Shown here one piece after another: positions 5,257 through 41,178 of a stretch of DNA of 64,000 bases. The stretch comes from Kalaharituber pfeilii. Taxonomy: Eukaryota > Ascomycota > Pezizomycetes > Pezizales > Pezizaceae. How positions within the stretch are numbered: the stretch's first letter is position 1; each line of letters opens with the position of its first letter. Position numbers and translations under genes: made by a program. The notes beneath the pieces are model-generated. The model was not told the DNA's origin and searched no databases. It worked only from the letters and a program-made list of their open reading frames with translations. The stretch is taken from NCBI GenBank assembly GCA_015179045.1, contig WHUZ01000063.1, positions 124,001 to 188,000 of the forward strand, in the 5' to 3' direction.

Positions 5257-5607
5257 TAGAGTGTAGTACCTACAGAGACTAGGACATAGGACCGCCACCC
5301 TGGCGGGCATCATCGGAGGCAAGGGCCTACGGGATAGCGGACAGCCCAGATTGCCGCTGGTGCGGCGAGGACGCCGAGAGGACACAACACATACTGACGA
5401 ACTGCCGGGTGTGGAAACAGAAGTGCCCCCGAGGCATTGACGACCTCCGCCACCCAAAGACAGACAAGGACGAAGACAGAGACAACTAATGGAATGGGCA
5501 GGGGGGTAGGAAACAGGGCCATTTTTATTCTCTTTACTTTTCCTTATATACTCAATTTCATGTATTTAGTACCTCGCCATAGCCCATAGGGCGGCACGCG
5601 AGTAATG

Positions 5608-5638
<31 letters not shown>

Positions 5639-8300: not shown

Positions 8301-9140
8301 TACTGTGTTTCACCACATCTCGACGCACACCACAATTCGACACACTTTCCCACCAAAACTGAGCGAATGCGAACCTGTATATCCCCACGCACAGAACCTA
8401 CTTTTCTATACGCCTTTCAGGAGGCTTAAAGCAAGCATCATTCTTCAGATCCTGCATCTCTACTTTTAAAAACAAGTAGGTATGAATGAATTATATCTGT
8501 GCAGATTTTCACATAAGTCTTGGCATATATTTTTGCAGTAAAATTGCAGATATGGAAATCTACCTGCTGCACCTGCAATTAAAATATTTAAACATTACAT
8601 TTAGATAACCTATCCCTATGGAGATATACTTGAATGCCATCAACATAATCCTTGAAGTAATTGTTGAGTTGTTCAAAATATTTTCATTCCCATAGAAATA
8701 TTGCATATGAATAGTATCGGAAGAGCACCTGAAAATATATATCAGCATGCCAACTATGCAATATACCAAAATGGACTGAATAAAATCAAGTGAACCAATA
8801 TACAACTAGGGGAGGCCCTTTGATCACAAGACAATTGCCATTGGTGTGATAGTGCTAAAAAAGAGTAGTATGTTCAGTCCGCTGAAATATTGTATGAGAG
8901 TCCATACAAATAGATGCCAAGACATTGTTACAAAGTTTGCGGTGCCGTAATTTCTTGAGAATGCTTTCTTTGAGCAGGCAGAGGTGCTAAACATGAAGAA
9001 CAAGTATTTATTTAGTGTCTCTAAATACCGCTTACAAAATTCTGCTTTAGTGGTTGAGGTACACGCTCTTCTGCGTGGCTAGTTTTGGTGGGAAAGTGTG
9101 TCGAATTGTGGTGTGCGTCGAGATGTGGTGAAACACAGTA
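8301..9140. repeat. Perfect 60-bp inverted repeat, arms 720 bp apart
   Basis: The left arm 8301-8360 (TACTGTGTTTCACC...CACCAAAACT) and right arm 9081-9140 are exact reverse complements over 60 nt. Pairing stops abruptly at both sides. The 720-bp interior is AT-rich without a gene. The outer edge of the right arm directly abuts a minus-strand type-2 hairpin (9141-9174). The perfect identity suggests a recent duplication or conversion in an otherwise decayed region. Confidence 0.92.
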
Positions 9141-9174
9141 ACCCCGCATACAAGCTACAAGCCTATGGCAGGGA
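9141..9174 (-). repeat. Type-2 hairpin unit, minus strand
   Basis: On the minus strand it reads TCCCTGCCATAGGCTTGTAG then CTTGTATGCGGGGT. The outer stem is CCCTGC/GCGGGG with one G-U pair, and the inner stem is AGGCT/AGCTT around TGT. It begins at the same base as the other type-2 units. Its 3' side runs into the 60-bp inverted-repeat arm instead of poly(A). Confidence 0.75.
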
Positions 9175-9266: not shown

Positions 9267-9315
9267 GAAAGGTCAAGCACCTCGCCATAGCCTTTCAGGC
9301 GGCATGCGAGTAATG

Positions 9316-9346
<31 letters not shown>

Positions 9347-9360
9347 GAAAGGTCAAGCAC
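9267..9360 (+). mobile_element. Hairpin-only insertion (type 1): 42 nt plus poly(A), 14-bp target duplication
   Basis: A perfect 14-bp duplication GAAAGGTCAAGCAC (9267-9280 and 9347-9360) flanks only the hairpin CTCGCCATAGCCTTTCAGGC plus GGCATGCGAG (9281-9310), TAATGATATATT and a 24-nt poly(A). No other LINE sequence is present. The inner stem is GCCT/AGGC where most copies have GCCC/GGGC, so pairing is kept by a double change. Integration therefore used little or nothing beyond this hairpin and tail. Confidence 0.95.
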
Positions 9361-9479
9361 TAAGCGTTGTCCTAAGTTACACCCTCATATTTATTACATT
9401 ATCGTAGAAACCGTAACAGGAACTGCTGGTTCTCACAGATTTCCAAGTGGCAATTAACAGGCTAACCAAATTGGCACAA

Positions 9480-10410
9480 GGGAGATGAATACCAGACTAT
9501 GGCAGCAATGCCTGCAAAATAACGTTACAGAACAGAGTAGCTCAAGGACTAATGGATGTAGCAGTAATGTGGGTTAAGGGCCATAACGTATGAAGAGAAA
9601 TGAAGAGGGAGAGAAGGCAGCGCAGCAAGGCACCTACTTGACCTATCAGGAGGAGGTGGTACAGTAACTGAGGAAGGCATGAGGATGCAGGCCAAGAGGT
9701 GACGAGCAGAAGAGAAGAACATGGTGCGGAGAAGCCGAGGAGACGAAAGCCCATTTACTGGGGGAGTGTAGGGTTTGGAAGAGGAGGTGGCCAGGGGGGG
9801 AAGAGCACGTGAAGAATCCCCCGAAGAAGGGGGAAGGGGAGAGAGACAAGTTAGACATAATTCTTCAAATGTTGGAGGAGTGAGGAGGGTGAGCAGGGGA
9901 GCGACGAAAGGGAAAAGTCTAATCACTTTTTATGTAACTAGCACAACATCGCCATAGCCCATAGGGCGGCAAGCGATTAAATGATATAAAAAAAAAAAAA
10001 AAAAAGAAGAGAAGAACAGGCTACAGTTGACCTACAGGGTCCTTCAGCGGTTAGGTTGACTGGCAATCACGTTGGGAGAAATGCTGGGTGGAAAGGATTG
10101 AGGGCATGGAGACATGATAGAGAAGGCAGATGGGCCAGGGTGTAGATAGTGTGGCATGGAAGAGGAGACATCTGCACACATCTGGTCCAGGTGCGAGGTT
10201 TGGAGGAAGAGGTGGCCAGGAAGGCTGGAGGTAATAAGGAAGCCCACAGCAAACAGCGAAGATGAACCAGACCTCCTGTTAGAGCTCTTGAGAAGGCGAG
10301 GGAGGTGACATTGGCTTGCCTAAAAATTTTCTCTTCTGATTTTCTTCTTTGTTATTATTTCCTTTGTATTTAGTCTCGTCATAGCCACACGGTTGCATAC
10401 GAGTACTGAT
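9480..10410 (+). mobile_element. Old LINE copy, interrupted by a younger LINE
   Basis: Degraded ORF2: AVMWVKGHN of the RNase H domain near 9555-9590, and a corrupted cysteine-knuckle region near 10150-10215. A tail hairpin CTCGTCATAGCCACACGG plus TTGCATACGAG lies at 10375-10403 and lacks a clear poly(A). Its outer stem is CTCGT/ACGAG instead of CTCGC/GCGAG, again a compensated change. Many stops and frameshifts. The 5' boundary is approximate. Confidence 0.75.
9709..10018 (+). mobile_element. Younger LINE fragment nested in the older copy, 13-bp duplication
   Basis: The insertion is 9722-10005, bounded by a perfect GAAGAGAAGAACA duplication at 9709-9721 and 10006-10018. It encodes only the cysteine-knuckle end (WCGEAEETKAHLLGECRVWK), a short tail rich in Glu/Lys, and the type-1 hairpin (9948-9977; outer stem ATCGC/GCGAT) followed by ATGATAT and poly(A). 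Removing it rejoins the older LINE sequence. Confidence 0.93.
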
Positions 10411-10636
10411 ATATATTTTCTTGACAAAGAGAATCACCTTCTATAAAATTACTCTAGCAAATGAATCGTTGGAGTCTCCAATTATTTCTAAACTGGAGAG
10501 TATCTGAAGCTGCAGCTTGATGACCATTACTTATACTCTGAATACCCATAGGTTGTTAATTTGGGCAACTATTATATACTCAAGCTGCAAACCCATCCCT
10601 GCCATAGGCTTGCTGCTTGTATGCAGGGTTATGTGA

Positions 10637-11654
10637 ACAAACACTGATAAAAGAGGAGGAACCCTGAACCATAATGACCCACTCCCCCTAGTAACGCTCC
10701 CTTCCCCCCCGGCAACCGCAGGGAAGGAGGAATGGGAAAGGGCCATTGCAGATGCGGAAGACGAAGGGTGGGAAGGGACCTACACAGACGGCAGCAGAGC
10801 GGAAAAGAGAACAGGAGGAGGAGGATGAAGGGCCGGGAGCAGGATGTCTCTCTACATGGGGACCAGAGCAACAGTCAACGATGCAGAATTGACAGCAATG
10901 GCAGAGGTTCTGGGAGCTGGGGACGGAGAGTTACTCATAATCTCAGACTCCAAAGTGGCCATCAGCAGACTACAAAAAATTGCAGAGGGAATGCCGACAC
11001 CAGTCGGGCCAGCCAACGCAGTCAGGAGGACCTGGGAAGGCAGGATAGCGAGAGGGGGTTTGGGCGTGGCTGTGATGTGGGTCAAAGGGCGCTGGGGCAT
11101 AAAGGGCAATGAGGCGGCAGACAAGGCGGCCAGGGTTGGCACATTCATGCAGTACCAAGACGAAATAGTCACGGAAGCAGGAATGCGCCAGCACGCCAAG
11201 GCACAGCGAGCGGAGGAAAGGAATAGGCTGGAGTTGAGCTATAGGCCCTTACAATGGCTGGGACATGAAGTACGAACGTTGGCCGGTCTAATGGGCAGCA
11301 AAGGCCTGCAAGCGTGGAGTTACAGGCTAGGCAAGGCGGATGGGCCAGAGTGCAGGTGGTGCGGGGAAGAGGAGGAGACGACGACACACGTATGGGGCAG
11401 ATGCAGGGAATGGAGAAGGAGATGGCCAGGCGGACTGGAGGCGCTACTTCGCCCACCAGAGCGGGGCGAATGAGAAGGGGACTCGCTGGCGGAGCTGATG
11501 CGACGGATGGAAAGCTACGGATGGGACTGGCTGTTAATTTTCTATGTTAATTATTTTTCTCTCCTTCCTATCTTCAATCTCCTATGTACTTAACATCGCC
11601 ATAGCCCTCAGGGCGGCATGCGATTAATGATATAAAAGGAATAAAATAAAAAAA
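10637..11654 (+). mobile_element. LINE copy (RNase H to 3' end) nested in the type-2 unit, 8-bp duplication
   Basis: Flanked by TTATGTGA at 10629-10636 and 11655-11662. The body carries the beginning of RNase H (EGTYTDGSRAEKRTGGGG, frame near 10770-10830), the open frame at 10844-11473, a 3' UTR, the hairpin ATCGCCATAGCCC...GCGAT at 11595-11624, TAATGATAT and an impure A tail. It is 5'-truncated at about 1 kb. The 8-bp duplication is short and its right neighbour is A-rich, so the exact edges may move by a few bases. Confidence 0.85.
10844..11473 (+). pseudogene. LINE ORF2 C-terminal fragment (RNase H + Cys/His knuckle)
   Basis: The longest uninterrupted LINE frame in the window, 209 residues. 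It shows the RNase H motifs NDAELTAMAE (Glu, residues 11-20) and LLIISDSKVAI (Asp, about 30-40). The histidine motif reads VKGRWGIKGNEAAD (about 84-97), so the usual catalytic His is replaced by Arg. The knuckle CRWCGEEEETTTHVWGRC (about 172-189) follows and the frame ends PPERGE-stop. The upstream TDGS motif is in another frame. It encoded the retrotransposon polymerase's RNase H and nucleic-acid-binding end, and is inactive here. Confidence 0.85.
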
Positions 11655-11920
11655 TTATGTGAGGAAAAAAAAAAAAGGGCTGCAAACCCAAGAATTTTCC
11701 TGGGGAGGGCGAAGATTTATTGTGAAACTACAGTAGCGCATTGAGCGTTCTTATGCTCGACAGGTGAGGCACAAGTGCCAGTGGCTTAGTCCAAATAGGA
11801 ATTTGATCCGTTGGGGTCGCAAAAGGTTTTCTCTCCACAAGAAATTGGAAGGGTCACTACTATCGCCAGTCATCTTCCTGATAGGCATTGTAGCGAGCAA
11901 AAGGTTGTTGACCCGAACCT

Positions 11921-11953
11921 ACGTGGAGGTAGTCTCATAACCAGACGTGGAGG
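11921..11953. mobile_element. 15-bp MITE-end insertion with perfect 9-bp duplication
   Basis: ACGTGGAGG (11921-11929), then TAGTCTCATAACCAG (11930-11944), then ACGTGGAGG (11945-11953). The 15-mer is the end of the MITE seen whole at 31403-31502, with one substitution. Only this end is present. Confidence 0.8.
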
Positions 11954-12063
11954 AAGTATATCGGGTGATCTCGAACATGTCACTGCCGAGGCTAAGGAAA
12001 GCAATCAAGACTCGCCAGGGCCGATTGGGGTAAGGAGGAGAAAGTGTCCTGGAAGCGAGATGT

Positions 12064-12098
12064 ATCGCCATAGCCCTCAGGGCGGCATGCGATTACTG

Positions 12099-12129
<31 letters not shown>
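12064..12129 (+). repeat. Type-1 hairpin plus poly(A), probable hairpin-only insertion
   Basis: The hairpin ATCGCCATAGCCC...GCGAT (12064-12093) is followed by TACTGATATT and poly(A) 12104-12129. Upstream sequence does not look like LINE 3' UTR. A candidate duplication is poor (GCGAGATGT versus GACAGATAT), so a solitary insertion is suspected but not shown. Confidence 0.6.
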
Positions 12130-12202
12130 GACAGATATACAACCACTTGGGGCAGAGATTGAGGTCATCTACCTCAAACTGGGCAAGGAGGATGCCCAGC
12201 CA

Positions 12203-12283
12203 AGTGGGAAAAGGTCCCTGTCATAGGCTGGTAGCCTGTATGCGGGGTTACGTGATTAAAAAAAAAAAAAGAGTGGGAAAAGG
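12203..12283 (+). mobile_element. Hairpin-only insertion (type 2): 43 nt plus poly(A), 12-bp duplication
   Basis: A perfect 12-bp duplication AGTGGGAAAAGG (12203-12214 and 12272-12283) flanks TCCCTGTCATAGGCTGGTAG plus CCTGTATGCGGGGTTACGTG, ATT and about 13 A. The outer stem is CCCTGU/GCGGGG with two G-U pairs; the inner stem AGGCT/AGCCT surrounds GGT. It interrupts the RNase H region of an older LINE; excising it restores GTGGGAAAAGGCCATCAGC. Confidence 0.93.
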
Positions 12284-12756
12284 CCATCAGCAAGGTTGGA
12301 GGCAAATCAGTAGCCATATTCACAGATGGTAGTCACAGGGAGGATGGAGGAGTTGGAGGTGGATGGTGCTGGAGGCAGGTAATAGCAGGAAAGTCAGAAG
12401 GGTCCCGTGGGTACGCACCAAAGCTACTGTGTGGGACGACGAGGTCTCAGGCATGAGGGGTGCCCTCGAAGCGGCTGATGGCAAACCGAAGGTGTTGCTG
12501 CTTGCAGAGTCTCAGGTAGCCATTAGCATAGTCAAGAGAGCAGGAAATATCGGCAAGGCGAGTCCTGTAGACCTTGTTACGGTGTCTGCGATTGCAGCGA
12601 AATGCAGGTGTAACTTAGGACAACGCTTGGAACTTGACCTTTGTATAGAGGCCGTGTAGGCCTCTATATATAGGCGTCTAGCGTGTCGGTTATTTGCATT
12701 ATTCTATTTAACATTGAGTGCTAATTAACAAGCTTCTCTCTCATCATCATAGCATC

Positions 12757-12945
12757 ATTGATAACTATTTCTCCTTCACACAGGAGGTTCCAGGGATTTC
12801 TACTCTCATCTGTTACTGTTATTGTTAGTCTCACGTCCCCATCACGCAGGAGTTTCCGGGGATTTCTACTTTGATATCTACCTTTCCTTATATTTCATAT
12901 GTAACTAAACATCGCCATAGCCCTTAGGGCGGCATGCGATTAATG

Positions 12946-12988
<43 letters not shown>

Positions 12989-12993
12989 ACTAT
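12757..12993 (+). mobile_element. 5'-truncated LINE 3' UTR, 11-12 bp duplication
   Basis: TTGATAACTAT flanks the insertion at 12758-12768 and 12983-12993, with one further A possibly shared. The inserted 214 bp is LINE 3' UTR with two diverged copies of a roughly 65-nt unit (CACACAGGAGGTTCCAGGGA and CATCACGCAGGAGTTTCCGG). The type-1 hairpin is at 12911-12940 (ATCGC/GCGAT; inner GCCC TTA GGGC), and a 32-nt poly(A) follows. Confidence 0.9.
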
Positions 12994-13964
12994 GAATGGC
13001 ATAGTTACCATGCGTTATCTCTCATCACAATGGCATCATTGATACTTTGTTCGGTCACCCTGATAGACCTGGCATAGGTAGTAGAGCTTGTGGCAGAAAG
13101 GCGGTGAAGGCTGAGGGATGCTGGGGTGGTGAAGCGTGCATGGGTTAAGACCCATGTGAGGATAGAGGGCAATGAGAAGGCAGATGAGAAGGCGAAAGAG
13201 GGTGCCAGATGCCTAGGGTATGACGGGCAGGCTAGTGAGGGCAGGCTACATCAGGAGTTAGTTCGAAAAGAAAGGAGAGGGGAGAGGGGACGAGCTGTCT
13301 TTGGGAAGGGAAAGTTTGTGAAGTGGTACAGGAGAACCCTCACGAATTAGACTTGGCCTGCGGGCCACTGGCAGGGAGAATGGTCATGAATTCTCCCTAC
13401 AAGCTCACATATGAGTGGCCTCGAACCTCCTGCAACTTACGGCGGAATCTGGTCCTGCTTCTCCGCAACTCTGACGGAAGGTGTATAAACCAGCCATACA
13501 GCACCTAGATAGGACTCGTTCCACTGAATTCGGCGTACATCGAAGCCAGAATCGGAGCCACAATTCTAGTAAGACCCCTAGTTGATATCGATTCAGCGAG
13601 ATGCCTCACAAGTGTACGAAATTCCCACTCACAGGTGTGATTACATCTCAACTCACATATTGTTGCTGGCGAGAACAGTCTGCTTTAGTGCCAAGCAATC
13701 AAAGCCCCTAGTGGCACTGATGCACCTTTTTTTCTTGATAAAAGTGATCCTATCAAGGCATATCAAATGAAAAAGTCTTCCTCAAACACTCATTGCAATG
13801 TTCTGGCCCACCGACGAACATTTTCCGGTTCGCGAACCGGCCAGCCGATTCGTGAACCGGCCGGCCCGTGAAAAACATATGGTGTTTTTCACGGGGCCAG
13901 CCCAGCCACGAACACCTGGCCCAGCGGCGAACATGAATGTACCTCGATGTACCTATATGTAATA

Positions 13965-14168
13965 TATATACTCGCTTATTTTTTTTTTATATATATCATT
14001 ACTCGCATGCCGCCTTGCAGGCTATGGCGAGGGTTTAGATACATGGATGATAATCAACGGAAAAATAAGTAACAGATAAGGAGATAAAGTGAAAATATGA
14101 CCGGTTACTCCGCCGCCCAGTCCATCACCTCCGCCAACGTTCTCTCCCCCCCCCTATATACTCGCTTA
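13965..14168 (-). mobile_element. 5'-truncated LINE, minus strand, 14-bp duplication
   Basis: TATATACTCGCTTA occurs at 13965-13978 and 14155-14168. Between them lies a minus-strand LINE end: poly(T), TATATATATCATTA, the hairpin (14002-14031; on the minus strand CTCGC/GCGAG outside and GCCT GCA AGGC inside) and about 120 nt of 3' UTR. It is inserted within the inverted-repeat element at 13799-15454. Confidence 0.9.
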
Positions 14169-14262
14169 TGATTTAATGTAATAGTGATCTATCATACAGC
14201 CAGCTAAGCAATTTCCACAGTCTCCTATCCCCCTATGCAGTCATCTATGTACAAACAATAGA

Positions 14263-14318
14263 ACTTTTTTTTTTTTTTTATATCATTACTCGCATGCCGC
14301 AGTATGGGCTATGGCGAG
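14263..14318 (-). repeat. Type-1 LINE tail, minus strand
   Basis: A poly(T) of about 16, TATCATTA and hairpin 14289-14318. The outer stem CTCGC/GCGAG is intact but the inner stem is broken (GCCCATACTGCGGC). The 5' extent of the copy and its target duplication are not identified. Confidence 0.7.
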
Positions 14319-15161
14319 GTATTTATTAAAGAAAGAAAATTAACCGTCACTAAATACATGTGGTGCCCGCAATACTCATACATGGTGCGGGTAGAATGTA
14401 CACACTGGTCAATACAGCCTATTTCCTCCGTCTGTCCGGCTCGTATTGAGTGGTCCTCAACCATTTCCCACCTAACCTAACTCTGTCTACGCCCGTCGCT
14501 GCCTCCAAGTACACACGACCGAGCTGGTCATTTTTCCTTCTTCAAGTAGCGCGGTCTTTCGTCTCAGCCACCTTATCCCCACGGTCTTGCCTAGCCTATC
14601 ATTCCCGGACTCCAACCATTTCCGGACCTTCCCTAAATATACATCACTATGTTCACTCTCATTCTCCTGGTTGGTACATTGACCAGCATTGCTTTTATTA
14701 CAAGAATAAGAACATTTAACCGTTTGACATATGCATGTACAACGAAGAGAAGAACAGGTACCTAGACAAGAACATGAAATTTTGTCTTGACAAGTTTTAT
14801 CATGATGAGGTTGCTTAAAGTGGGTACTTGGCACTTGCAGGGCTCTTATTATCTACTGTTTCTGGTAATACAACCACCAAACTTTTCATTCTTGGCATCA
14901 ACGCAATCCCTGTTACTGCCACAATATAATACCAGAATGGCGGAGGATTCCGGAAATCTCTACCTATGAAGATAACACTCCAAAATTTCGCTTAGAGTAA
15001 GAAGAATACTAGAAGCATATCTAGTAATTTTCTTCTAGTGTTTCGGTTAACAATAATTAAGTTATGATTACAAATTGGTATTCTTAACTATAGCAGTCTA
15101 GAAGCGTAGTGAATTATTAATTAAACTGTCTGTATTATCTTCTAGTATGTGGGTAAGAAGT

Positions 15162-15240
15162 AGCAACTTATCACCGACAGCAACTTATCACCGACAGCAA
15201 CTTTCAAGTGGCAACTTGTAGGTGGCAACTTGTCAGTGGC
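15162..15240. repeat. Short tandem repeat, 17-bp unit then diverged units
   Basis: Two perfect copies of AGCAACTTATCACCGAC (15162-15178, 15179-15195) are followed by diverged units beginning GGCAACTTGT. Confidence 0.8.
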
Positions 15241-15821
15241 AATAGGGCTGTGCTAGCACACAGTAACTGGCTTATCAATTAACGCTGGTAGCAGAATGTT
15301 TCTCTATACTCAATCACTGGTAGTACGTAGAGGTACCTAGTGGTACTTGTACTAAACCAGTGTTCGTCGGTGGGCTGGCCCATTCGCGAATCAGCCAGCC
15401 CACCGACGAATTGGCCGATTCGCGAACCGCAATGTTCGTCGGTAGGCCAGAACAGCAACATCAAAGTTACTTTAATGATACCGATTGTAAAGCAGACAGA
15501 CGAAAGCTATTTGCTTCGAGCGTAAGGTCTGGGAGGATAGTGTAAGGCCGTGTTTGGTCGCCATATTCAACCTAGTTTTTGAAGCTGAAACCAAACGATC
15601 GTTTCGCGAGATACTAGGTATGTACTGTTCTCGTGACCAGACTCTGATATGTACTAGAGTACTTGTAATGTGCGGCGCTCCCAGCAAAAATCGAAAGTAT
15701 GCAACAAAACCTCACTATGGAATATATGCCTATTACATATAGTTTCGATGCAACGCTACATGCGTATGTCCAAACTCAACCCATGGCCCGCCTACATCCA
15801 AGAAATTACCGGTGCTGAAGG

Positions 15822-15908
15822 TATGGAGGTGCCCTGCCATGGCGAACAGCTGCACGCGGGGTCACGTGAAAGGAAAAAAAAAAGAAAAGAAAAAAGGATA
15901 TGGAGGTG
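15822..15908 (+). mobile_element. Hairpin-only insertion (type 2): about 38 nt plus A-rich tail, 10-bp duplication
   Basis: TATGGAGGTG at 15822-15831 and 15899-15908 flanks CCCTGCCATGGCGAACAGCT plus GCACGCGGGGTCACGTGA and an A-rich, G-interrupted tail. The outer stem is CCCTGC/GCGGGG. The inner stem GGC/GCT surrounds GAACA, retaining pairing although the sequence differs from other copies. It is the third independent type-2 unit starting at the same base. Confidence 0.9.
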
Positions 15909-19194: not shown

Positions 19195-22100
19195 ATGGCA
19201 ACCTTCAGATGTACTGCATCCCTACCATATTTTGGTGTTAAGTTGGCGAACCTGTGTGAATTTACTAATCCACTTCATCCGCTACAGTTGACATCGAGCT
19301 TGAATCCCTCACCTTCATTATCAATCATATATTTCTGCCACCAAAGCTCCCCCAGAAAGCCGATGCGGATCCCGGCGAGCACAATTCAGTTCTTTTGAAA
19401 CTTTGTCTCGTTGTGGCGGAAGAATACCAATCACGCAGCCTCGATCCACAAGGGCGTGGCTCATGGGAACTCCACGAGATGTGGGTGCCAGCGGTAAAAA
19501 TGTTGGGGAATTTCTCGCGGCTAGATAATCAGAATTCCCTGGATGCGCATGCGTTTAGAAGGGCGGTGAAAGATATGAGGACAGGAGGTACGTTTTGAAC
19601 CTTTGTTCGCTTAACGGCTTAAAAAAATTCATCGGGCTAATTGGGGGAATGCCTTTGTAGATGTGGTGGCCTTGCACATCGCAGCCCAGAATGCTGGGTT
19701 GATTCTCCACGAAACCAGAGAGCGCATGATATTCCAATCGTTTGAAGCCTCCCCATTGACTGCAGAGGTTTTGAAACCCGTCGGCAAACTTCGCTGCTCC
19801 TACCCTGGCCCCGCTATTGCTGTGAGTTTGAGCAAAGCCAAAAACAAGACCTTCCTGCGAGAGCTTTCCTCCTTCCTTGAGAAAGTGAAGCGAGACACTG
19901 CGCTAGCCCAAAACAAGCACACAAAAGGAGCATCTACTGTCAATGAGGAGCGAGAAAGCGCGCACCCTAAATTCATCTCCGAATTGCTCACTGGCATCTT
20001 ACGTGGGATCGGAGAACCCGCCACCGTGCAGCGTTTTGAAAAGCGCATTGGGGATGAGGTACTATGGGATAATGCGCGTATTCCATGGCGCCGGTCACCG
20101 TTATGGTTAGTGTTGAGAGTTGCGCTGCAAACAACTATGATGATTCACGGCAGTCAGATCCAGTATAAACTCTTCATGGTCTACCTGATAACAAAGATTC
20201 TGCAGCTAGCTATGCGGCAGAATCTAGGAAGCGATATTCTTTTTGTCATGAACGCAAAGCTCAGCCGGCGAGTCTCAAAGATGATGGGTAGCACAGGTGA
20301 GAAAGCTGCACATGTGGAGGGATCGAAGTGGGTTTTTGAGGAGGCCCGCCTAGTTGGTGATAGTTGTGCTCGAAAGCTAGAGCACAGGTGGAACGAGACA
20401 CGCACGTTTTACTCTCGGTCGCTGTCGTGGAGCCCTTGGACTTTGAAGCCAGCAGCTGACACGCGTCTCTCAATGCCCAATTGTGAGGAGTACATCAAGT
20501 GGGCACGCTCCTGGGGCCATGCGAAGCCTGAAAGGAAACCGTTTAACCCACAAGAGGGCTACCGAGTTCTCCAGTTTCCACAAATCCTCCCTGCCATGGA
20601 GAGTCTCAGCCTAGCCCCAGAAGGCCCTGAAATGGAACTTGCGCTAGCGGACGTGGAGTTATGGGTTCGAGACCATCTTGGCTACTGGGTATCCCACGTC
20701 GCAATGTTACCGAATGTGGACGCCACATGTGACGAGCTGGGGCGGCTAATTCAGCAATATATCAAATCTGCAAAGGTGATATACAACGGAAATCCGGAGA
20801 GAATGTCGGTATTTTACCTGACATTGATGGAGATGTGGATTGCGCTGGACACGCTGGTGATTGAATTGTATCCTCTATTGGCGGATTATTCACCGTATTA
20901 CTTCACTGATGGCTTCTTAAACCCACTGCTCTTGCCAGAGCCTCAGCAGCGGGAAAGGCTTCAGCGAATCGAAGAGTACCTGAGAACTAGAAAACAAAAC
21001 TCCCAACAGTTTGACGTTCAAGACAATGTGTTCTCAGATACACCAACATCCAAGTCCTTCTCAGTAAGATATTTCGACCAAAATTACCAATTTGAAGCGT
21101 TACGACAAAGCATCATCGAAAACGCCTTCGCCCGCAAACAGCAGAAGAGGATTGAGCTACAGTCAAAGATTTTACAACAGGAGAATCTGAAGGAACAAGC
21201 GCATCACATGGAATGCCAGTACTTTACTCATTGGGAACAAGGATGGACGCGACACCATAATCGGTGCCAGAAATGCTTGCTCATCAAGGACGCAGAAAAG
21301 ATCCGTGTGGAGGTTTTTGAATGGCCACTGCCAGAAGACGAGATCAAGAGCAAAGCCGCTGTTTTCGAGCTCTGCTGTCCGCAAGGTTTCTCCGTCTGGC
21401 GAGACACCACGTACCGCATCCTTGCAGAAGTGTCAGCAAACCTCCAGTCCACAACTGCGAAGACAGACTCCCAACAACAGCCGCCGTTTGAATATCTTGA
21501 AAATTTTGCTGAACTGCGAGTATACCATATGAGTAATCGTGTACTGGGTGATGGGCAACAGCTTCACTGGGCGTCTTCCACGAAATCCTTTGCGCATTCC
21601 CATTATCGATTCGCAAAATTGCCCACAGATCTGAATAGTGTTTGTGTCAAGAATAGTCTAACATTCGGGTTATATGATCAACAGAGTAAGCGCTGGGTTG
21701 ACAAGGACTTCGGTGACAGTAACATTCGTGGAGACTGTACCTACAAACTACCCGATGGCCCATACAAGCATCTACAATTTTCCCTCCGCTACTTGCCGTA
21801 CTCTCCAAACCAGATTATTGCGAAGCAATCGGATTGCCCTCCCGAGATTCAATTAAATGAATACATCGCTTTTGGTCTAGTTCGGTCCGGTAGGCGGGTT
21901 CAATGGTTGAATATGCTGCGCGAGCTCAGGACGAAGACCTTGACATTCAATAATGAAGCAGTCAACATGCTTTTCAATCTTTGTGCATGGCAATCGGGCC
22001 CACCTGGCGATGGAGGGGGGCATAGAGAGGCACACGTTCACTTGAAAGAGGAAGAGTTTAGACAGAAGTTGTTGACTGAGTTATACAGTATGCTTGAGAG

Positions 22101-25100
22101 TATTAAGTCAAATTGGCAAGAGGCGGTTACAGCAAGGACGTTGATAATTCTAGCATGCCAGCTTCTGATGTTCTCCAACGATACAACTAATAGATTTTAC
22201 TTTCGCAACGAGGTAGTTTCATTTCTCAGGCGGGCAAGGGCAGTATGCGTTGCTTGGGCCCGCGACCTCGCCAACACCTTACACGATTGCGAGAATCCAC
22301 AGGAGATCCGAAGCCTGCAGCTGCGAGTAGTTCAAATCGCCGCAATATGTAGGGAAACGTACAACGTCGCAGCGGATTTTCTCAACTTACTGTTACATAC
22401 GAAGGAAGATTTTGCCATCCTAGTCGAGTGTGCAACAATAATTCATGATAACATTTCTGGGGTGACATCGAAGCTTGAGCCACCGATCCGATTTTTGCTA
22501 GAACGGGATAAGCGCCTCGCTCATGCTATTGAGGGCTATGTTCGGCAGATGATAATTGATTGTGAGGTCAGACTCGATTTATCTCGAGTATGGGAGTCCT
22601 ATGATGGCAGCAGTTGCAAATGGCATGCATTAGAAAACCCAAACCAGCGGTGGATAACAGCATCTGTAATGACTGGATCCGGGGCGTATCAAGAGGCGCA
22701 CTATAACATTCTTACCGGACGACTGTTGGTAGATGGATTACCATTAGGGAGAATGCCGTCGGAGTATATCTCTGATCCGGTATATAAGGAGCTTTTAGGA
22801 GAGGTGCATAATCTGGTCTGATTGTTGCAAAGGTTTTGAGCTAATATATACTTCAACTTTAGAAATTACTCGATGTGTACCCTGCTAGTATTCCTGGAAT
22901 GACGTTTCAAACTAGACGCCCGATAAACGGAACAGAGGTGTGTATATCACCACATCAATATCTGATGGGCTTCATATATTGGCGGCCGCTGATAACTCTA
23001 TTTATGTACTTCTCAGGTAGCATTTGCGTTGGATGAATCAGAGCTTGTTATACGTAGTATTACTAAAGAAAGGCAAACCTACCACCTGATTCCCAAGTCA
23101 AAACTCAAAGGCGAATTTCCGGCGCACATCATCGATCAATATGTCTTCTGGTATCACCTAGGAACAGGAAAAATCGAATTACGTGAAAGAAATAAAACTG
23201 CCGTATGGTTTACTTCTATGTACCCTTACATCTCCTCTCCCAACGACAGTAGCACCGGCCATAGGCACCTTTACTTTACATTCGACAATAAACTCATAGA
23301 TGTCAATAGTGACACGGCCAAGATGATACACTCGGTTTTGAATCCTCTTGAATACAATCGACACATTGAGGTCCGTTGGGGGAAAGGACAGTTCAGTATC
23401 AAGGAAGTATCAGCCAGATTACCAAGACTCAAGCTAGATTTTTTCGTAAACAAAACCCATGATCTGGAATGCCGACAGTTTTCCCGAATGGTGGTCGATA
23501 GAAACCAGAACTTAGACACCCTTATAGGCCTTGATACTAAATTGATTGTACGGCAAGGCTCTGTTCGCAGTCTCTTCGTTCCATACGGCACAGTAACCTT
23601 CCGCCCGGATGACAAAAACCACGTTAGTGTCGAGATAAGCACAAATCGCAAAGGTTTTGACAGAGTAAAATATCATATCTATACTATTGACGATACTCTC
23701 GGGCGGCTTGTTGCCAATGGAAGCTTAGCAAGTCACCTTTATAAAGTGTTTCTCCATGCCGTTACGTCTTCATGTATGCCCGATCCATTGACCGGGCGAA
23801 CCGGGACGGAAGAAGCGTTAGCGTTGCTTCGATCCGCTGCGACATGGTCCTTTCAGCGACTTGACAAGGACGGAGTTGAGGCTGAGCTTCTGAAGCTCAT
23901 CGCAGGTCTCTCACCTACGCGTGTCTTTTATCCCAGACATCTGAAATGTATGCAGCAGATTACCTGGAATCCTTTATCACCTCTGTCGCAACATGAGAGC
24001 TTTGAGGTCCTTGCACAGAGCGTGTTTTACCACGCGGAGTCGTTGCATATGTTTACAGAGACGCAGGAAGATCAAAAGTACTATAAACCCAGCAGTGACT
24101 ACCACCTTTCCAAACGGGCGGCATTTCGCAACACCAAATTCCGGCGGGACGAGTTCTTACACACAGCAGAGAAACACGCGAGCAAATCTGTTGCAGACCA
24201 CCATTATACAGCTAGGGACTCACGGGAGTCACTAGAAGAAGCGAGGGTGCACTATACTGCGACACTTGTGGAAGCATGGCCGACCAGATTAACAATCTGC
24301 GAGAATTTGCTGCGGATATTCATGTCGTGGACACATTTGGATAATCAGCCGTTGGATCTCGGATATGATGAAAGGCTTCTTGAAATTGAACTTGCGGATG
24401 TTTGGTTCGACTTGCAACAGTCACTAATAGATTGTTCCTACGAGCAAGATATGTACAAACTCATGTTCACCTTTAGCACTCTGGCGTACTCCGGGCGAGT
24501 GCCACAGCATCTGATTGAGACTTTATTGGCCTTTGCTACGGTGCCGGACTTGAGGCGGCTGGGACTGCCCAAGCTGACGATTTATGACTTGTCAGACGGA
24601 TTCGTACCAGATCCGGAGTTGCTGTTTGCAAGGTTGAGAGAATGTGCCATTGACTTCATGGAGACCGACGAAGCGAATTTCCCGCCATTACCATTCGAAA
24701 CAGATCAAGCGTTGGCACTGAGGCGGTCGGAAGCTTATAGGAATAACCTCCACCAGCAGATATCCTCCCTAGTAGACAGGCTTGTCGACCAATGGCCGTG
24801 CGAATTTGTGACGATACCTGCCCAGTCAGAGTTCCGACTCATATCAATGGACGCAGTGGGACTAATCGTGCGCCCTCTCTTCCTGGCCTGGTACGAGAAC
24901 ATGGGATTCGAGGAATATATGGCAGTGGTGCAGTATAATCTCAACCGCATTAATGTCAACAAGCCAGTGCACCTGCAGCACTACAGATTCACGCCGTATA
25001 GAGCCTTGACGACCTCAGAAGACGAACATTTGCAACACGAGACTGTGCTCGCAAGGCCACACCCCATTCTACCAGCGACAAGTGTCATATACACTCCAAC

Positions 25101-28100
25101 AGCCGCGGATGCCAGAGGGGATCAAGAACCAAAATTTCATTCAAACCACGGCCGGATCATCCATGACCTCAGTTTGCTCTTGGAAAGCTTTTCGAAACAC
25201 TCACCAAAAGGCGATTCCAACCGATTCGTGCAAGAGTATGCATCGCATTTGGACAATAGCTTTCGGGCGCTCAGGTCAACAAAGGTCAGTGGCATGCCCA
25301 CAAATTTGCTTGCAGCTGTAGCCATGTTGGAGCAGTATAAAGCTGCCTGCGCAGAGTATTTGCGGACTATCTCTGGAGCAATTCAAGATGCAGTGGTTCC
25401 CAAGCCGTTCGAAAGCGGATGGATGATACACAGGGCCGGCTTGTGGCCACAACTCTCACCTGTCGCACTACTACAGCGCTTAGCGGCTTCGACCTTTGAG
25501 AAGCTAACCGACGGATGGAAGGAAGTTTTGGTGCAGTATGGGGTTGCAATCACGATGCTGCAACGAGCAGAAAGATTACTTCGCCTTGCACCAAGAGCGC
25601 AGCAAAGCAGAGGAAGTTCAGATTTTCTTCGCGAACTGGATAATATAGGGCATCAAGGCTGGGACCCACGGGAACGCCCGGACTGGCTTTTGATGGAGAT
25701 CGAGAACAACGTCCTAGTACGTTCAGTTCAAGCAGAGGTTGCTCGGACCATGACCGCTCCACCAAAGAATAATAACACCATTATGCAGCTATTAATGGGT
25801 GAAGGGAAGACATCAATTATCGTCCCCATAGTCGCTACTGCGCTTGCAGACGGGACAAAATTGGTAAGAGTTGTTGTACTTAAACCGCTGTGTGGACAGA
25901 TGTTTCAGACGCTTGTCCAACGACTCGGCGGGTTGGTTAATAGAAGGATATTCTATATGCCTTTTTCACGGAAACTCAATCTGAGTTCGCTTGACGTCAA
26001 GAGAATTCACAGCATGTTCGAGCATTGTAGGTCAACTGGGGCGATACTCGTTGTGCAGCCAGAACACATCTTATCATTCAAGCTGCTAGGTCTGGAAAGA
26101 CTCTACAACGCACAGCACCGTGAGACCACCGTCAATGACGGTCACCGGGACGCCAGTGAACAAACTTCTGTTGCACAGCTTCTGATAGACACGCAGCTTT
26201 GGTTGAAAAAATATTCGAGAGATATACTTGATGAGAGTGATGAGATTCTCAGCAGCCGGCATGAGTTGATATACACCATTGGAAATTCGAAGCCAATTCA
26301 ACATCATCCCCAGCGATGGCTTGTTGTACAGGAGATACTGACGCTGGTAGAACAAACGTTGAAGGAGAGGAGGGAGGAGCGGAGGATTAGTCCACATAGT
26401 TTTGAAATTGAACAGTCTAAGTATTCTCGTGTTGGCGGGTTTGACTCAATCAGAATCCTTGACTTGGCGGCCGGTAGGGAGTTGTTGGAGTCTGTTGCAA
26501 AGAGAATCATAGCGAGTATATTCCCCGTCTTTCCATTGTGGCTGCAAGTAGTTTTGTTCTCAAAGTTCTGACTTTTCTCCAGGCCAGCTTCCAATCATAT
26601 CCTTCCGGCATTGGAATGAGGAGAAACAAGGGCTGGCAACCAAGTTCATCACCAAACCAAAGCTAAGCCGCGAAGAGATCGAGGAGCTGCTCACCGGGGA
26701 TAGTGATCTTGATAACACACTCCTACTCCTTAGAGGACTAATTGCCCACAACATCCTCTTGTTCGCATTGCACGAGAAGCGGTGGAAGGTGGACTACGGC
26801 TTGGACTTGAAGCGTTCTATGCTCGCGGTCCCATACCGTGCTAAGGACTCTCCATCTGGTCAATCGGAGTTCAGCCATCCAGATGTTGCTCTCACCCTGA
26901 CGTGTCTTAGTTATTACTACGGTGGTCTCACGGAAAATCAGCTGGAACTCACCTTCCGGACGTTATTCAAAACGGACAACCCAGCTTTGGAATACGAGAG
27001 ATGGTGGAAAAGAATGACATGCACTGAAAACTACGACCTGAAGCATCTCAACGCTGTTAACCTGGAAGATATGAAACAGTGGAAAGACCGGATTTTGCCC
27101 ACGTTCAGGTTTAACAAGGAAGTTATCGATTTTTATTTGTCAAGGGTTGTGTTTCCATTGGAGGCTAAGGAATTTGAACATAAATTATCGTCTTCTGGAT
27201 GGGATATTGCTGAACGGAAGACGCATCCAACAACAGGATTTAGTGGGACGAACGACAATCGATTTCTTCTTCCACTGTCGATAACCCAACACGACACGGA
27301 TCAACAGCTGAATACAAACGCAAGCGTCCTCAGCTATATTCTCCAAGATGGAAACCGCTATGTTCCCATAAAGACAGATAAGGATACCCGCCTTGGTACT
27401 GTAGACCTGCTCAAACGTCTAGCAACAAAATATGCTTCAAACGAGATCCACGTCCTGCTAGATGTTGGTGCGCAAGTGCTTGAACTCAATAATGAGGAAG
27501 TCGCACAGCAGTGGCTGCGCATGGTGTCTCCAGATCGTGTGCGGGCAGCAGTGTATTTCAACGAAGACGACGAATTGACGGTGCTTACCAGGGAGGGGGT
27601 GAAGGAGCCGGTGATGATCAGTGCATTTGCGGAGAGACTGGATAATTGCGTGGTGTATCTTGACGAGGCACATACTAGAGGAACGGACTTAAAATTGCCT
27701 CCTATCTGTAGGGCCGCGGTGACTTTGGGTCCAAATTTGACCAAGGATAGATTGGTTCAGGGTGAGTCCTTACGATTTGCACTGTGCACACATATTCCTC
27801 CCGTCCGGCCGGTTCTGACATAAAGCAAAACTTGCAGCATGCATGCGAATGCGCAAACTGGGAAATGGTCATTCAGTCCTATTCTGTGGGCCCCCAGAAA
27901 TCGATCGAGAGTTGCGCAACGTAGCGAGAAGGCACAAACGCGACAGAGTCGAAGTTCGCGATGTGATTCACTGGTCCATGCAGCAAACCTGCCACAACAC
28001 ACGCAAACTTGTCCCAATCTGGGCGAAGCAAGGGGTCAGTCACCGACAACGTTCCCTTGCCATGAGAGACTCTAGGTTAGGTTTCCCTGAAGGGCTACTA

Positions 28101-41114: not shown

Positions 41115-41178
41115 CCCTTGCCATAGGCTGGTAGCCTGTACGCGGGGTTATGTGACCAAAAACAAACAAAAAACCGGT
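41115..41178 (+). repeat. Type-2 hairpin unit with A-rich tail
   Basis: CCCTTGCCATAGGCTGGTAG then CCTGTACGCGGGGTTATGTG, followed by ACCAAAAACAAACAAAAAA. The outer stem is CCTTGC/GCGGGG with two G-U pairs; the inner stem AGGCT/AGCCT surrounds GGT. No LINE body precedes it. No target duplication is recognisable. Confidence 0.75.

Follow-up and report, generated by a model that had tools for sequence, protein, structure and literature searches.

Insertions that consist of one tail hairpin of a long interspersed nuclear element (LINE) followed by an A-rich tail, and of nothing else, were found in the genome of the desert truffle Kalaharituber pfeilii (assembly GCA_015179045.1). They start at a near-fixed position at the base of the hairpin and form a discrete class. 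The elements were noticed in a stretch of 64,000 nt (contig WHUZ01000063.1, positions 124,001 to 188,000 of the forward strand), in the following called the window. The reading favoured here, to which about an even chance is given, is that the base of the hairpin is where LINE RNA is cut or trimmed, and that the remnant, still carrying the presumed recognition site of the reverse transcriptase, is retrotransposed.

Four such units, each enclosed between perfect duplications of 10-14 bp, had been described by a sequence-only reading; all four are present, as established by reading the letters and checking the coordinates. They are listed below by window position, together with their target-site duplications (TSDs).

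9267..9280, + strand: left TSD of the type-1 unit, GAAAGGTCAAGCAC, the same as 9347-9360 (14/14)
9281..9346, + strand: type-1 hairpin-only retroelement; hairpin 9281-9310 (from the pattern), spacer, poly(A) 9323-9346 (from the scan)
9347..9360, + strand: right TSD of the 9281 unit, exact 14-bp copy of GAAAGGTCAAGCAC
10584..10595, + strand: left TSD of the split type-2 unit, GCTGCAAACCCA, equal to 11679-11690 (12/12)
10596..10636, + strand: split type-2 hairpin-only unit, 5' portion; T, then hairpin 10597-10628
about 10637..11654, + strand: nested 5'-truncated LINE copy of ~1 kb, outer limits good to a few bases
11663..11678, + strand: split type-2 unit, rest of the A-tail
11679..11690, + strand: right TSD of the split type-2 unit, matching GCTGCAAACCCA
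12203..12214, + strand: left TSD of the 12215 unit, AGTGGGAAAAGG, 12/12 against 12272-12283
12215..12271, + strand: type-2 hairpin-only retroelement, beginning TCCCTG
12272..12283, + strand: right TSD of the 12215 unit, copy of AGTGGGAAAAGG
15822..15831, + strand: left TSD of the 15832 unit, TATGGAGGTG, 10/10 against 15899-15908
15832..15898, + strand: type-3 hairpin-only retroelement, beginning CCCTGCCATGGCGAACAGC; TSD score 10 at the hairpin base
15899..15908, + strand: right TSD of the 15832 unit, copy of TATGGAGGTG

The split type-2 unit owes its form to the ~1-kb LINE copy that hit its tail. This nested copy (10637-11654) holds an RNase H frame at 10829-11470 and a type-1 tail hairpin at 11595-11624, and is flanked by TTATGTGA at 10629-10636 and 11655-11662, exact over 8 nt; by eye, the duplication is possibly 13 nt long with two changes. 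Three of the four units had been assigned to one common type 2, with a shared start (T)CCCTG. The assignment and the start hold for two of them; the 15832 unit has a hairpin of a third type (CCCTGCCATGGCGAACAGCTGCACGCGGGGTCACGTG), and in this unit CCCTG is preceded by a G that may be part of the TSD. The LINE-attached relatives of this hairpin mostly read CCAGGG(G/A)CCCTGCC. In place of one common type 2, at least three hairpin types exist.

Copies were evaluated in genomic loci fetched under running labels (L001, L092 and so on), about 360 kb of DNA being read in total, window included. The set comprised 198 copies after deduplication, 26 copies with repeated upstream flanks having been dropped; 129 had any candidate match, and the 69 without an A-tail or candidate match were scored as misses. 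In 60 of the 198 copies the hairpin base is the end point of a duplication scoring at least 9. Thirty copies, all of type 2, had been preselected by their non-G flank and are reported apart: they contribute 12 such cases, and 48 are found among the remaining 168. In these copies, not selected for shortness, hairpin-only insertions with a TSD score of at least 9 make up 21/95 for type 1, 8/33 for type 2 and 19/40 for type 3. When downstream flanks were exchanged between the 129 copies with a candidate match, 3 cases out of 1278 resulted, and an unconditional swap on 175 type-1 and type-2 copies, with any position within 60 nt accepted, gave 2 out of 525. The TSDs of hairpin-only copies are 9-16 nt long, with a median of 12-13. 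Paralogous empty sites (at most one gap, at least 75% identity) were detected for at least five of the 60 insertions (L020, L085, L059, L015 and L001), the last being the window's 12215 unit, whose best empty site shows 78.9% identity with one gap; 14 further queries, with gappier, weaker or nested matches, were left uncounted.

The distribution of 5' ends separates the short units from longer copies. The 101 type-1 copies considered before deduplication included 21 hairpin-only ones, 27 resolved as longer (ends 19-1,074 nt past the hairpin) and 53 unresolved. With a TSD score of at least 12 demanded of both classes, the 8 nt surrounding the hairpin base hold 14 ends, as many as the whole 130-nt stretch lying 19-148 nt out, where two (at 121 and 123 nt) look like copies of one insertion; the spike has a Poisson P of about 6e-13, the rate being taken from the same data. 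The sequence-only reading had suggested that the short units are a discrete class and not the end of a continuous truncation series, and the spectrum bears this out: no continuous distribution of 5' ends was found in the DNA read.

The start position itself is narrow. Most hairpin-only copies begin no more than 2 nt outside the outermost base pair (offsets of 0-2 nt), namely 17 of 21 of type 1, 17 of 20 of type 2 and 15 of 19 of type 3. For type 2, a start precisely 1 nt outside the CCCTG stem is seen in 12 of the 20 copies, 3 share 1 nt with the TSD and 5 have 1-6 extra nt; for type 3, the same position accounts for 10 of the 19 starts, with 6 overlapping the TSD and 3 having extra nucleotides (1-6). 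These overlaps are about at chance level: for 0, 1, 2 and 3 nt, type 2 shows 12/3/0/0 against 11.2/2.8/0.7/0.2 expected, and type 3 shows 10/3/2/1 against 12.0/3.0/0.8/0.2. Two pairs among these type-2 copies, L046/L056 and L036/L062, have a common target and are probably inherited copies. In exact-start copies the last TSD base is mostly a pyrimidine (11 of 12 for type 2, the two pairs with a common target included, and 7 of 10 for type 3), possibly a preference of second-strand cleavage.

The short units are related by sequence to several LINE subfamilies. For two units, that of L022 (A-CCCTGCCATGGCCAAGTGC) and that of L027 (A-CCCTGCCATGGCTTGGCGCTGT), the agreement with LINE-attached tails (in L015 and L025/L075) extends to the base before the stem. 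LINE-attached counterparts exist for all of the four short-unit variants examined, a set to which that of the window's 15832 unit does not belong. Genome-wide frequencies were approached by counting exact matches with different flanking letters, on the two strands. Type-3 hairpins with the flank typical of short units, two non-G letters and then a purine, number 391 + 396 = 787, and those with the LINE-like GG plus purine 211 + 211 = 422; in the type-3 TACAAG variant, short-unit flanks number 148 + 164 = 312 against 45 + 30 = 75 GGG flanks, and at least 66 copies (40 + 26) have the LINE letters CCCAGGGG upstream. Type-2 hairpins show a non-G letter followed by T in 23 + 25 cases and GT, as in the LINE, in 78 + 79, while type-1 hairpins show two G/C letters in 24 + 28 cases and two A/T letters, as in LINEs, in 381 + 380. 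These counts are proxies; in local checks, a TSD at the hairpin base was present for HHR flanks in 4/5 copies, GGR 0/2, SS 3/3, WW 2/20, HT 17/38 and GT 2/17. Judged in this way, short units are more numerous than LINE-attached tails in type 3 and are the minority in types 1 and 2. As the start recurs in three types and the four checked variants occur also on LINEs, a single master RNA is unlikely, and short units seem to arise repeatedly from LINE RNAs at the same position. A separate small-RNA gene is so far not supported, since variants belonging to several LINE subfamilies are present in the short units.

The hairpin was further characterized by pattern counts over the whole assembly (78.03 Mb, 360 contigs), each search being controlled by the pattern read backwards, which gave 0 matches every time. 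LINE 3' ends in this genome are composed of a two-stem hairpin, of which at least three types exist, and poly(A): an outer stem of 5-7 bp, an internal loop and an inner stem, which measures about 4 bp but is longer in the type-2 fold, are followed by a spacer of about 10 nt and the poly(A). With 35-mer patterns and at most 2 mismatches, type 1 gives 2513 + 2450 = 4,963 matches and type 2 gives 329 + 320 = 649. Type-1 pairing covaries: in 66 distinct hairpins 552 of 594 pair cells are standard (92.9%), against a mean of 86.5% and a maximum of 88.7% in shuffles, 0 of 2000 reaching the observed value. Position 1-30 is C-G (39) or A-T (21), and position 13-17 is C-G (47) or T-A (13). The type-1 hairpin is thus conserved as expected if selection maintains the stem-loop, with the reservation that the shuffle ignores relatedness. 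For type 2 no clear covariation signal was seen (95.0% against 94.3% shuffled, 67 of 2000), its sequence being too invariant to tell. In some type-2 short units (L048, L058, L042/L023, L108) a run of C is located between the hairpin spacer and the poly(A).

The same hairpin is common to LINE 3' untranslated regions with different upstream sequence, and RNase H frames lie upstream of all three types; two of three type-3 LINE frames score above the curated RNase H cut-off, and one just under it. A protein fragment of the type-2 LINE has named LINE-like matches in K. pfeilii and metagenome matches with up to 47% identity (50 proteins out of at least 7,995 candidates), one of these relatives, P0005, containing RVT_1 and RNase H. 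In a survey of 210 poly(A) tracts of at least 12 nt in the fetched DNA and the window, 155 are preceded by a loose full or half match to type 1 or type 2, the loose type-1 pattern also catching type-2 hairpins, and 17 of the remaining 55 are type-3 tails. By analogy with stringent-type LINEs (PMC4176376, PMC5135761), the hairpin is most likely the recognition site of the LINE reverse transcriptase. The type-1 pattern had 0 matches in viral contigs; its one match in prokaryote genomes (L109), in a bacterial contig with 69% GC, was taken as chance.

Under the favoured reading, a part of the LINE transcripts would lose all sequence upstream of the tail hairpin, either by endonucleolytic cleavage or by 5'-to-3' trimming halted at the hairpin, which would probably be protein-bound. 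The remnant, an RNA made of the ~42-nt hairpin and poly(A), would still be sufficient for the enzyme; target-primed reverse transcription would begin on the poly(A) and run off at the RNA 5' end, so that each new hairpin-only unit would have its 5' end fixed and be flanked by a target duplication of 9-16 nt. The hairpin, the copy numbers, the TSDs, the near-fixed start and the LINE-subfamily variants found in short units are features of the DNA itself; recognition by the reverse transcriptase, cleavage or trimming of the RNA, and run-off are steps that we infer from them. An extension of this scheme appears rather unlikely: the ~42-nt hairpin plus poly(A) might be among the smallest units to retrotranspose efficiently, and a site-specific cut at the base might free it from any transcript carrying it near its 3' end, in which case short copies could themselves become donors, as headless micro-SINEs (SINE, short interspersed nuclear element) with no promoter of their own.

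Two mechanisms had been offered by the sequence-only reading, a discrete short RNA and a stop of reverse transcription at the hairpin. The former fits the near single-nucleotide start at the far side of the hairpin; the latter is a serious rival, and junction types do not discriminate between them. The simplest version of a stop is disfavoured, because a reverse transcriptase blocked by the hairpin should halt at its 3' side, and inserts ending at or near that side are few among the 210 poly(A) tracts (9, 13, 18, 19 and 31 nt, with TSD scores of 12-15, plus weaker ones), the spike sitting instead on the side reached last. Four inserts of this kind, in which poly(A) follows LINE tail portions of 9, 13, 19 and 18 nt, are located in L013 (minus strand, ~2096), L065 (~1763), L066 (minus strand, ~626) and L076 (~2463), at positions on the strand named, with duplication scores of 14, 13, 13 and 12. 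A more elaborate version is a real possibility, if short of probable: on an intact LINE RNA, the enzyme would copy through the hairpin to which it is bound, lose contact and stop, and the second strand would then be joined, with no short RNA involved. That each of the three types has its spike at the distal edge of the hairpin agrees with it, as do the junctions of longer truncated copies, not clearly different in type, and the lack of a known source of short RNA. A lost grip should nevertheless smear the stops, and only three type-1 ends with score at least 12 lie 9-60 nt upstream, at 19, 25 and 50 nt; furthermore, just over half of the type-2 and type-3 starts occupy one position, with the rest close by. 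The narrow start, together with the near-empty zone just beyond the hairpin, favours an RNA end over termination.

It is improbable that the short units live freely, that is, as families amplified independently of LINE transcripts through autonomous transcription of the units or of a few master copies. The excess of short-unit over LINE-like flanks in type 3, also present in the TACAAG subfamily, speaks for such micro-SINEs; the LINE-attached counterparts of the four variants examined speak against them, as does the promoter search. No B box was found within 3 mismatches in three unit sequences, and the A-box-like matches within 1 mismatch, where type 1 fits the loose consensus, occupy the homologous part of each of the three. 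In the window, ARAGORN detected no tRNA, and no Rfam family reached its gathering score. Random 5' truncation of LINEs, with hairpin-only copies as its short end, does occur, as the 27 longer copies among the 101 of type 1 demonstrate, and a few copies also end inside the hairpin or spacer; as an account of the short units it is very improbable, the strongly non-uniform 5' ends and the spike at the hairpin base in three types leading us to reject it. Scarcely any weight is given to a non-insertional origin, whether by assembly error, by copying of LINE tails in tandem or in segments, or by loss of LINE bodies through excision. Some units are indeed carried in duplicated host DNA (the groups L046/L053/L056 and L036/L060/L062, with common targets), but the different flanks with their own 9-16-nt TSDs, the varied lengths of the A-tails and the empty sites contradict it for most copies with TSDs.

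Several observations weigh against cutting or trimming of the RNA at the hairpin base. We know of no enzyme that cuts there. Type-1 starts are the least exact of the three types, with offsets of 2 nt in 8 copies, 1 nt in 3, 0 nt in 6 and other values in 4 (n=21). An A-tailed insert of 40 nt on the minus strand of L092 (about 1349), whose TSD scores 12, has no recognisable hairpin, and is possibly a retrocopy of another RNA. Kinship with a known ribozyme or RNA family was sought in Rfam at E<=5 for two units, giving four weak, chance-like matches, the best with E 0.2. Finally, the 5' junctions of hairpin-only copies of types 2 and 3 (n=39) comprise 20 direct joins, 11 with microhomology and 8 with extra nucleotides, and those of longer truncated copies 8, 3 and 9 (20 evaluable of 32), which is not clearly different; many of the calls of extra nucleotides in the longer copies rest on diverged relatives. 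Microhomology had been tried as a test of run-off against a stop in mid-template, and a first tally was run-off-like; it was dropped since the longer copies did not differ clearly. For Nimb-2_DR, direct joining is described mostly in full-length inserts and annealing mostly in truncated ones (PMC4245944; for 5' junctions see also PMC2666801).

Other copies of the tail hairpin in the window, the first three used for comparison, are the following.

5573..5638, + strand: LINE-attached type-1 tail, the insert extending 303 nt upstream of the hairpin
9948..10005, + strand: LINE-attached type-1 tail, the insert extending 226 nt upstream
12911..12982, + strand: LINE-attached type-1 tail, 142 nt upstream; counted as its copy in L001
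14000..14031, - strand: LINE-attached type-1 tail hairpin, 123 nt upstream

In addition, a type-2 hairpin without any A-tail is located at 9139-9173 on the minus strand, and flanking words like those around it (GAGATGTGGTGAAA) follow the tail in L020. A further type-2-like hairpin at 41116-41150 (+ strand) has an A-rich tail and no clear duplication. Frames matching DUF6606, DUF3638 and DUF3645, in that order, occupy 19615-27823 (+ strand) and are probably one large fungal gene.

If the favoured reading is true, the units would represent retrotransposition at its minimum: a LINE enzyme may need one hairpin and an A-tail. The short units would be a natural record of where the template RNA, or its reverse transcription, ends, and suggest how SINEs may begin, as a bare tail awaiting a head. 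They are also abundant repeats which annotation based on length cut-offs likely misses. Searches of the open-licence literature found no description of tail-only units, which does not establish their absence from print; a comparative paper that includes K. pfeilii counts non-LTR I elements among the families abundant in Ascomycota, and the word SINE is absent from its main text (PMC7550596).

Compared with known elements, the unit is not a SINE by head, promoter or origin, and is SINE-like by its tail, its duplications and its narrow 5' end: a 3' end common with a partner LINE is combined with an A-rich tail, and a discrete 5' end with a TSD in 60 copies. Neither is it an ordinary truncated LINE, although its sequence matches the LINE 3' end. 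Truncated LINEs have the same tail, A-tail and TSDs, and the LINE machinery is the probable maker of both, but their 5' ends are scattered, while those of the short units cluster at the hairpin base. In fungi, AfuSINE2-1a of Aspergillus fumigatus has a tail resembling the 3' untranslated region of Tad-clade LINEs and a tRNA-related head; elements of this family are, like those of K. pfeilii, short, non-autonomous and flanked by TSDs, but one listed element is 140 bp long, while the K. pfeilii units have no recognisable head and about 42 nt before the A-tail (PMC5063351). The closest precedent is the stringent LINE/SINE pair with a common 3' stem-loop. For the zebrafish ZfL2-1 and ZfL2-2, the 3' stem-loop is reported to be bound by the ORF2 protein and to be essential for retrotransposition (PMC4176376), and Tad1 of fungi is listed among LINE/SINE pairs with a common 3' stem-loop (PMC5135761). 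As here, a conserved 3' hairpin is common to several LINE families and to non-autonomous copies in the stringent-type LINEs (ZfL2-1, ZfL2-2, UnaL2) and their SINE partners. The heads of such partners are usually tRNA- or 5S-related. The K. pfeilii unit, in contrast, is the tail alone.

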